Origin: Gammaproteobacteria bacterium
GTDB taxonomy: Bacteria; Pseudomonadota; Gammaproteobacteria; JACCYU01
Assembly (NCBI GenBank): GCA_013696315.1
Contig: JACCYU010000008.1
Location: 1-52,322, forward strand
DNA: 52,322 nt
Direction of reading: 5' to 3'
The position numbers and the translations under genes were made by a program. Of this stretch, positions 9,840 through 12,592 are shown one piece after another. How positions within the stretch are numbered: position 1 is the stretch's first letter; every line of letters begins with the position of its first letter. The notes below the pieces were generated by a model. That model worked only from the letters and a program-made list of their open reading frames with translations, did not search any database and had not been told where the DNA came from.

Positions 9840-9929
9840 GGAGAGGTGCCGGAGCGGTCGAACGGGGCGGTCTCGAAAACCGTTGTACCTTCGCAGGTAC
9901 CGTGGGTTCGAATCCCACCCTCTCCGCCA
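9840..9929 (+). tRNA. tRNA-Ser (anticodon CGA)
   Basis: This 90-base tRNA folds with a 7-bp acceptor stem (GGAGAGG with CCTCTCC), discriminator G and encoded CCA at 9927-9929. The anticodon stem is GCGGT/ACCGT with loop CTCGAAA, giving anticodon CGA (reads UCG). A long variable arm is visible (GTACCTTCGCAGGTAC), as expected for tRNA-Ser, and the T arm is GTGGG-TTCGAAT-CCCAC. The 3' part serves as the attachment site of the decayed element that follows. Confidence 0.96.
9877..9929 (+). repeat. Left attachment repeat (within tRNA-Ser)
   Basis: The anticodon-loop-to-CCA part of tRNA-Ser is repeated at 12540-12592 with one difference (C at 9918, A at 12581). This copy restores a complete tRNA, as expected for the end next to which the integrase lies. 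Confidence 0.85.
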
Positions 9930-10021
9930 AAATCAAATAGTTAGCTAGGAGTTTGGGGCAGGGTGTCGCGTTTCCGATGGCGAGTTGCTAACCAATTCGT
10001 CAGGTTGGATCTGCAAAGGCG

Positions 10022-10681
10022 CTACGCCACGCGGCGTCCAGCTTGAGGGCCGCCTCTTCCTGACCGGTCGTTACCGTTACCAGCAAAGGGACATAAAGGC
10101 GCGTAGCCTTTGCTGCTTGCTGCGTCTAGAAGCATCATGGTTTCGTGCTCATTGAGCGCGCGCATTTCATGTCGATCCGGGCGTGGCGCCTCAACTGCAT
10201 CGGCCGGGTTGCGCACCATGACCCGCCATTTAATCGCCGTCTTTGAGCGCGAGCTTAAGCACGCGATGATGATGGAGTAACGTCTGCTCAGACAGCGCAC
10301 CTTTCCCATTCAAGCGGCCGGCCTCCCGCGTCTTCGCATAGCACTCTTCAATGTGCAGCGGACTTAGCTTCGTAAGTGGGTAGTTGCCAAGCGCCGGAAT
10401 CAAGTGCCCTCGGCATATCGCCGCGTATCGAAGGTAGGACTTGGCGGCTAAGTTGGGCTTGGCGTAAGCGTCTAACCAGCGTTCGAGATAATCGCGAACG
10501 TTCTTCCTGCGCTTGTCTTCTTAGTGCCGCGCACGGTGTGCCAGGACTGCGTGCGCTTCCCGTGCTGATCAAGGCCTAGACTGATGATTACGGACCACGA
10601 GCTCTTGCCGCGCTTGCGGAGGTGTCCTTTCACATTGATTTCTCCTGTTTGCGGCCAAAGGCGTGCGCGAACTGTAGCCAC
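10022..10681 (-). pseudogene. Tyrosine-type site-specific integrase, frameshifted and truncated
   Basis: Three minus-strand frames together give one integrase. Positions 10681-10472 encode an arm-type DNA-binding N-terminus (GHLRKRGKSSWSVIISLGLD). The middle, around 10330-10250, reads GRLNGKGALSEQTLLHHHR in another frame. Positions 10230-10022 encode the core-binding to catalytic transition (VMVRNPADAVEAPRP, ALNEHETMMLLDAA). At least two frame changes are needed. The coding sequence stops close to the tRNA, so the catalytic part with the Arg-His-Arg-Tyr residues is missing. Its position at the attachment repeat fits the integrase of the bracketed element. Confidence 0.8.
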
Positions 10682-10896
10682 AGGGCGCCGAGCAAGTTGT
10701 TCGGCACGATGTATGGCGCCAACTTGCCTTGGGGATTCCGGAGCACGCGGGTCGATACCTTGCCGTCTAGCGCCTTACTCAACGCCCTTTGAAGATACTC
10801 GATCGCGGGCTCTATGACGTCACCAGGCGCTACGCGATCCAGAAAGTCGCGGCTGCCAAGGTCCGCTCTGGCGTGCGCCTTGCTGAAAACAAGCAC
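10630..10896 (-). pseudogene. Phage-associated hypothetical protein fragment
   Basis: This 88-residue frame contains VIEPAIEYLQRALSKALDG and NNLLGALWLQFAHAFG. That pattern is known to me from uncharacterised phage and island proteins which normally continue with a cysteine-rich segment. Here it ends abruptly (GRKQEKSM) where it overlaps the start of the integrase remnant, so it is probably truncated by a deletion. I assign no function. Confidence 0.4.
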
Positions 10897-10910
10897 AGCA
10901 TCATCAACCC

Positions 10911-11114
10911 ATGTCCGTCCCCGGCGCCGTCGAGCGCACCGAGCGGGCTGTTGCCCAGTTACCCGAACACCTGCGCGCTGTAATCGTCGAGAAATATACC
11001 TGCGGCGGCCCGCGCGAGAATGACCACGCCAAACACCTGGGACTCACTTTAAGTGTCTGGCGCATGCGCCAAACCTGCGCCCTACATTGGCTGCTGGGGC
11101 GGCTGAGCCGATAG
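10911..11114 (+). CDS. Small sigma-region-4 or antiterminator-like helix-turn-helix protein, possibly truncated
   Basis: The 67-residue product contains AVAQLPEHLRAVIVEKYTCG followed by AKHLGLTLSVWRMR. This is the layout of a sigma-70 region-4-like or phage late-regulator-like helix-turn-helix. Such short proteins occur near the regulatory end of prophages. It is divergent from the integrase side. No good ribosome binding site is visible and the N-terminus may be lost. Confidence 0.4.
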   Translation: MSVPGAVERTERAVAQLPEHLRAVIVEKYTCGGPRENDHAKHLGLTLSVWRMRQTCALHWLLGRLSR

Positions 11115-11507
11115 CGCCGTTATATTTCCCGGAGTGCCAGCGGGCCGAATGGCACATCGCCGGATCGGTGACGATGAGAGGCGTAGCGAAAGCGAGTCTT
11201 AACAGGGCGATCAGTCAGCGCACGGCGCTCTGTTCGCTGATGCGCATGCCGCGCACCGTGGCGGCGCCGCTGCTGGGGCGCATCGTCGGCATCATTACGA
11301 AACGGTATCCTGAAAGGTTGGCGCGGCCTGGGTGGACCTAATCGGCCGCCGCAGACGCTGGTCAAGTCGGCGAGTGACCCATAACCCCGACCGGCCGGCG
11401 GCACCGTCCCTTTGGGGTCGCTCCCTTTGGGTGCGTGGCGGTGGACGAAGGCGGCAAAGGTGATTCTTGCTTGGCTCGTGTTTGTGGCAAATACGAGATC
11501 CTGCGCA
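11115..11507. other. Element interior without supported gene
   Basis: About 390 bases inside the bracketed element carry overlapping short frames on both strands (for example minus 11404-11120), none with recognisable protein character. I interpret it as eroded coding DNA. Confidence 0.4.
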
Positions 11508-11984
11508 TCATCGCGGTGCAGAGTTTCGGTGAAACGGTAGCAGCGTGCGACCGTTTGTAATCTCCCGGTCGCGCGATGTTACCGCCAGCAAGGTCGCAAC
11601 AGCTGTTGCCGAATGCGTGCTGCCGTTGCTCTTCGTCCGCTGCTTCCAGATGTTGTAGATCGGCGGGTCAAAATAAATCTCGTGCGCAGCTAACTCACGG
11701 TTGCGCTTCTCAATCTCATCAAGCCGCTTCTGCTCGTCCGTGATCTCGGATGATGCGCCAGGGTTTACGCAAAAACGAAAAGTTTCTATTTCGCGTAAAA
11801 CCACTGGAAACCGTGACTGCGTTGCGCTGACCGCCGCCGCTATCTCATCCTGCGTATAGCAGGCAGCGGATTCATGCCCTTGGGTTACGGCGGTCGCATC
11901 GTGCGACGCCTGACGCAGCGTGGAACGAACCTTGCGCGTCGTCCGCACCGGCAGCTGATGCCGGGGAATGACTCGGAGGTGCAT
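11508..11984 (-). pseudogene. Fragment resembling a phage ParB/DNA-methylase-type protein
   Basis: The frame encodes about 158 residues, of which only the middle looks like protein: CYTQDEIAAAV, EITDEQKRLDEIEKRNRELA and AAHEIYFDPPIYNIWKQ. The last motif followed by KSNGSTHFGN is familiar from phage proteins that join a ParB-like part to a DNA methyltransferase. Here the frame reads GSTHSATA, while a neighbouring frame gives the expected HFGNS, so a frameshift at about 11605 breaks it. The remainder of any methyltransferase domain is absent. Confidence 0.4.
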
Positions 11985-11986
11985 CT

Positions 11987-12313
11987 ATGAGCAGCCGTCC
12001 GGCTTACTGGGGCTTTAGCGAGGGCGACTACACGCCGCCTTGTGTCATCACTTCGGACAACCAAATCATCGATCTGGCTACAGCGCCGGTGCAAACATGG
12101 GCCGGGGCGTTCGATCCGGAGGAGGTCGAGATCATCAAGGATGCTGTGACGCGCTGGCAGATCGCGGTTGCTGCTGGCGCTGCGCCTGAGGACGCTGCCG
12201 GATATGGATGGGCCGGCGAGGGGTTTGGCTATCTCGCATGGAAACAGCGCGAGATCGATGGGGAGCACTGCGAGCAGGAGAAACTGAGGGAGTGGAGCAG
12301 GCAGCGCGGCTGA
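11987..12313 (+). CDS. Hypothetical protein carried by the tRNA-Ser element
   Basis: This is an intact 108-residue ORF with a good ribosome binding site (CGGAGGTG about 7 bases before the ATG). It is acidic, rich in Trp and Ala, and has no membrane segment or signal peptide. Segments such as SDNQIIDLATAPVQTWAG and WKQREIDGEHCEQEK give no family that I recognise. A terminator follows at 12378. It is the only gene of the element that appears undamaged and may be accessory cargo or a phage structural or regulatory gene. Confidence 0.55.
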   Translation: MSSRPAYWGFSEGDYTPPCVITSDNQIIDLATAPVQTWAGAFDPEEVEIIKDAVTRWQIAVAAGAAPEDAAGYGWAGEGFGYLAWKQREIDGEHCEQEKLREWSRQRG

Positions 12314-12377
12314 TCGACCGGCGCGTGGATCGGTTCCTCCAAAATTGGAGGGACCGATTGGAAGGCTTCACGACATG

Positions 12378-12401
12378 GCCCCGCTTCGGCGGGGGCTTTT
12401 T
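12378..12401 (+). terminator. Rho-independent terminator
   Basis: A GC-rich hairpin (GCCCCGC, loop TTCG, GCGGGGGC) is followed directly by five T residues. It ends transcription from the small ORF at 11987-12313. Confidence 0.8.
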
Positions 12402-12521
12402 GTTACCGGAGTTGCTAACCAACGCGTAGCAGCGGCAGTTTTTCGAAGGGATGGAAAACATTGGAGCTCTGCCAATCGTATTATGAAACAAGCTAAGGTA
12501 TGAGGTGGGACAGGCCGGAAT

Positions 12522-12592
12522 GGAGAGGCCAGATCTGGGAAACCGTTGTACCTTCGCAGGTACCGTGGGTTCGAATCCCAACCTCTCCGCCA
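12522..12592 (+). repeat. Right attachment repeat / degenerate tRNA-Ser copy
   Basis: The sequence begins with the 5' acceptor strand GGAGAGG of tRNA-Ser, then has a shortened unrelated middle of 11 bases. From 12540 it repeats the anticodon-to-CCA half of the intact tRNA (53 bases, one mismatch). The D arm and the 5' half of the anticodon arm are lost and the T stem has a C-to-A change, so it cannot act as a tRNA. Confidence 0.8.

Follow-up and report, generated by a model that had tools for sequence, protein, structure and literature searches.

Positions 9877-12592 of the window (the whole stretch of 52,322 nucleotides that was analyzed) very probably represent, with a probability of about 0.92, what decay has left of a phage-like integrative element or temperate phage at tRNA-Ser(CGA). 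An earlier note, made from the letters of the sequence, had already proposed an integrative element at a tRNA-Ser, and this reading is supported by integrase homology, by the att cores and by a prophage at the same tRNA in a related genome. The comparison set consists of one genus relative (G001) and one family relative (G002). The source genome is assembled in 280 contigs and offers no strain-level variation for comparison.

The displaced 3' part of tRNA-Ser

ARAGORN reports a single tRNA in the window, the intact tRNA-Ser(CGA) of 90 nt at 9840..9929 on the plus strand (Rfam RF00005). Its 3' part (9877-9929) recurs on the same strand at 12540..12592 with 52 of the 53 positions identical, so the 53-base repeat with one mismatch (9918 C, 12581 A) is as first described; over the extended repeat (9871-9929 against 12534-12592) 56/59 positions agree. 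Near-identity starts at 9877, immediately 3' of the anticodon (9874-9876), and the last bases are CCA, ending at 9929. The best match of the tRNA 5' part within 10000-14000 still has 11 mismatches in 31, and therefore only the 3' part has been copied. For a 53-nt copy with such identity, side and orientation, chance is excluded. No tRNA is called by ARAGORN at the distal copy, where the mismatching base (12581 A) disrupts the outermost pair of the T-stem, as would be expected once selection on the copy has ceased.

The proximal copy is read here as the attL core, supplied by the element, and the distal copy as the attR core, the original tRNA-Ser 3' part in its displaced position. When the 5' flank and tRNA 5' part (9840-9876) are joined in silico to the distal 3' part and the right flank, ARAGORN recovers a complete 90-nt tRNA-Ser(CGA); the joined flanks form the predicted empty site. 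With direct repeats spaced 2663 bp from start to start and a flank join that restores the tRNA, the att-type bracketing of about 2.66 kb is upheld. The same signature has been described for Islander, with the anticodon loop among the main crossover subsites (PMC4383910).

Just inside both cores lies an exact 14-bp word on the plus strand, GAGTTGCTAACCAA, at 9982..9995 (53 bp inside the left core) and at 12409..12422 (about 120 bp inside the right core). A shared word of this length was found in 3/20000 random segment pairs, and the 11-bp core motif TTGC[AT]A[AC]CCAA occurs only at these two sites within the 52-kb window. G001 has the core of the word, TTGCTAACCAA, in tandem between the att core and the integrase, at a position as in the window; a variant, TTGCAACCCAACTGCAACCC, is seen at the corresponding position of another locus in the source genome (contig C154) with an integrase of the same family. 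The pair looks like arm-type sites, to which the integrase may have bound.

A broken integrase and its relative at the same tRNA

The remnant of a tyrosine integrase (10021..10653, minus strand) reads towards the intact tRNA and lies no more than about 100 bp from it. The integrase similarity suspected at 10022-10681 is confirmed by a homologue on contig C142 of G001, which directly adjoins the same tRNA-Ser(CGA) and carries the Pfam domains Arm-DNA-bind_4, Phage_int_SAM_3 (SAM-like) and Phage_integrase, with one frame break in the assembly. Identity to this gene is 76-77% at the DNA level over 10064-10653 and reaches 86% at the protein level mid-gene. The homologous blocks (from 10651 to 10021) occupy three different frames with at least three frame changes; the earlier note had rightly placed the gene in three frames, to which further indels and a large deletion can now be added. 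Compared with G001, the window lacks a short stretch near 10517 and some 470 bp near 10063, the latter corresponding to the main part of the catalytic domain. Hence the arm-binding and SAM-like parts persist in changing frames and the catalytic core is deleted, with the last ~14 codons retained at 10021-10062. As the gene is so broken, Pfam and PHROGs scarcely detect its fragments: Pfam gives the SAM-like domain only (E = 0.0034, under the cut-off). Integrase scans yielded no close relatives in IMG/VR and a single weak relative among GTDB contigs. A base-calling error would not remove ~470 bp, and guaB, guaA, xseA and tadA, the host genes nearby, are all intact; the integrase is therefore dead, a real pseudogene rather than a sequencing misread.

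Directly upstream of the integrase, at 10660..10848 (minus strand), a truncated gene remnant is homologous to a 277-aa protein of G001, whose Cys-rich C-terminal part is missing in the window. The deletions within the integrase and this partner gene suggest that the element has shrunk.

On the left, the host flank runs colinear with that of G001 (87-88% DNA identity). In that genome the integrase is followed by genes for a DUF3631 protein, a prohead protease (Peptidase_S78) and Phage_capsid. Relatives carrying the same 2.7 kb, which the earlier note had named as the counter-case, were not seen: G001 has a different, larger prophage, and G002 has neither integrase nor element. A second att copy was found in neither G001 nor G002, and the right flank (an exopolysaccharide cluster), when sought for an empty site, was absent from both. 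For the right-hand 1.6 kb of the element, comparison with 7.5 kb of the G001 prophage revealed no relation; consequently this part may derive from a phage or from another integrative element.

The interval between tadA and the tRNA (8190-9839) measures about 1.65 kb in the window and contains two small ORFs, the equivalent in G001 being only about 350 bp. In G002 (contig C66, L037:1590-1640) short tandem repeats, GGTCTTACCTCTGGTCTTAC, follow closely on the 3' side of the same tRNA-Ser, not far from a gene whose product has a nucleoside deoxyribosyltransferase-like domain; they are possibly traces of another element at the G002 site.

Between the window and G001 the synonymous difference is 0.68 for the integrase blocks (near saturation) against 0.27-0.40 for guaB, xseA, tadA and guaA. 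The nonsynonymous difference of the integrase blocks is 0.13, although the exact ratio is unreliable given the short blocks and saturated synonymous sites. High synonymous and low nonsynonymous difference together imply that the integrases split well before their hosts and would have been functional for most of that time. The pattern points to two separate insertions of related elements into the same tRNA, the copy in the window having probably been broken late.

Other content of the element

The phage-like fragments announced for the bracketed region can be recognized in part: the description holds for the integrase, its partner gene and one methylase-like fragment, and the remainder is not identifiable. 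This last fragment (11613..11945, minus strand) belongs to a phage-type ParB/N6-N4 DNA methylase-like protein, as seen from alignments with 11 IMG/VR relatives and their Pfam domains; these phage proteins combine a ParB-like or HTH part with an N6/N4 methylase domain. The HTH and the 'PPIYNIWKQ' region are kept and the rest of the methylase is lost. A short ORF at 10911..11114 (plus strand) has a weak match to a phage family (phrog_35346, E = 0.00095), its identity being uncertain. No structural genes were recognized within the bracket by Pfam or PHROGs, and there is no second copy of the element elsewhere in the genome. DNA searches with 9930-12533 gave no match in phage records and none in plasmids except for a 38-nt scrap of 23S rRNA (11178..11215, plus strand). 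This scrap agrees at 36/38 positions with the 23S of Aureimonas, an alphaproteobacterial similarity, and no 23S gene was found elsewhere in this assembly.

A 108-aa ORF with no assigned function (11987..12313, plus strand) shares its tail and terminator (12194-12402) with a piece beside tRNA-Pro on contig C140 of G001, at 88% identity. We considered this piece as a conserved cargo gene or RNA and rejected it: of its 12 differences from the G001 sequence, 10 affect the first or second codon position, a pattern without visible constraint on a protein. Near the piece at the G001 locus, downstream of tRNA-Pro (L036:9678-9930), is a tRNA-like stretch whose anticodon-like loop reads TGT; ARAGORN does not report it as a tRNA. 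Weak Rfam hits to sX4, RsmY, SorY, tmRNA and plastid psbL-rps4, all under the gathering score, were taken as chance or tRNA-derived.

Elsewhere in the source genome, contig C154 carries a 10.4-kb island (L053:449-10997) that lies between a tRNA-Gln(CTG) and an exact 44-nt repeat of the 3' part of this tRNA. It has its own integrase-like ORF (967-1746) and, according to PADLOC, a CBASS set (phospholipase effector, cyclase and E2). Just beyond the distal tRNA-Gln half (L053:11065-12662), an N-terminally truncated integrase of the family found in the window is followed by a Fic-type (SoFic) gene, which looks like a second decayed element stacked at tRNA-Gln.

Origin and meaning of the element

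The course of events can be pictured as follows. A tyrosine integrase would have inserted the element at the anticodon loop of tRNA-Ser(CGA), the recombination event itself being deduced from the present arrangement. The incoming element would have brought a copy of the tRNA 3' part and so kept the gene functional (9840-9929), pushing the original 3' part 2.66 kb downstream (12540-12592). Since then the integrase gene has acquired small indels, its catalytic core has been deleted, and most of the cargo has disappeared. With both lost, the element would therefore be unable to excise by itself.

Loss of autonomy leaves room for a CIME (cis-mobilizable element), defined as having lost its integration and transfer genes while retaining attL and attR (PMC5704250): a non-autonomous, att-flanked element that could move when a related phage, such as that of G001, supplies the integrase. 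Both att cores and one arm-like site per end are indeed retained, and a related, nearly complete integrase is present at the same tRNA in G001. However, that integrase too has a frame break in the assembly, searches of this genome revealed no intact integrase related to that of the window (the one on C154 is without its N-terminal half), no cargo is visibly under selection and the element is single-copy. The relative in G001 is phage-like, and descent of the window element from an ICE or IME, as in a CIME, is not visible; it has no accretion partner and shows no sign of movement. We consider this explanation quite unlikely, and it is highly doubtful that the element is the phage-dependent counterpart of a CIME, that is, a minimal 2.7-kb element without working genes kept mobile in trans by tRNA-Ser phages. 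Duplication of the tRNA half by another route (decay of a tandem tRNA array, illegitimate recombination or misassembly), with a coincidental integrase scrap, is the least credible: partial tRNA copies can occur without integrases and one base differs between the copies, but the extent, side and orientation of the copy are exactly as integrase attachment predicts, the integrase remnant is that close to the intact tRNA, and a homologous integrase occupies the same tRNA in G001.

The preferred reading, a decayed phage or phage-like element, agrees with the islands and prophages of the Islander type (PMC4383910). Shared are the intact tRNA with a displaced downstream 3' fragment in the same orientation, the adjoining tyrosine integrase in the interval (recognized through homology to G001, as a pseudogene), the anticodon-loop subsite, a length above 2 kb (2663 bp, within the range of 2-200 kb) and restoration of the tRNA upon in silico removal. 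The difference is that the integrase is no longer an ORF, and an integrase-ORF filter may reject the element. Of the features of a functional prophage, an intact integrase is absent and structural genes were not recognized. With the G001 prophage the element shares tRNA-Ser(CGA), the left host flank, the homologous integrase with its upstream partner gene and similar arm-like repeats, whereas that prophage is larger, has capsid and prohead-protease genes and keeps the catalytic residues of its integrase, in which the assembly shows the one frame break.

Overall, the element adds one more case to a familiar and ordinary class, that of degraded prophages or integrative elements targeted to tRNA genes, and it leaves the general understanding unchanged. 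For a lineage with little sampling, it illustrates the end stage to be expected of a tRNA-targeted prophage, with the same tRNA-Ser(CGA) used at least twice within one genus, and makes plain why old insertions may escape filters that rely on an integrase ORF.
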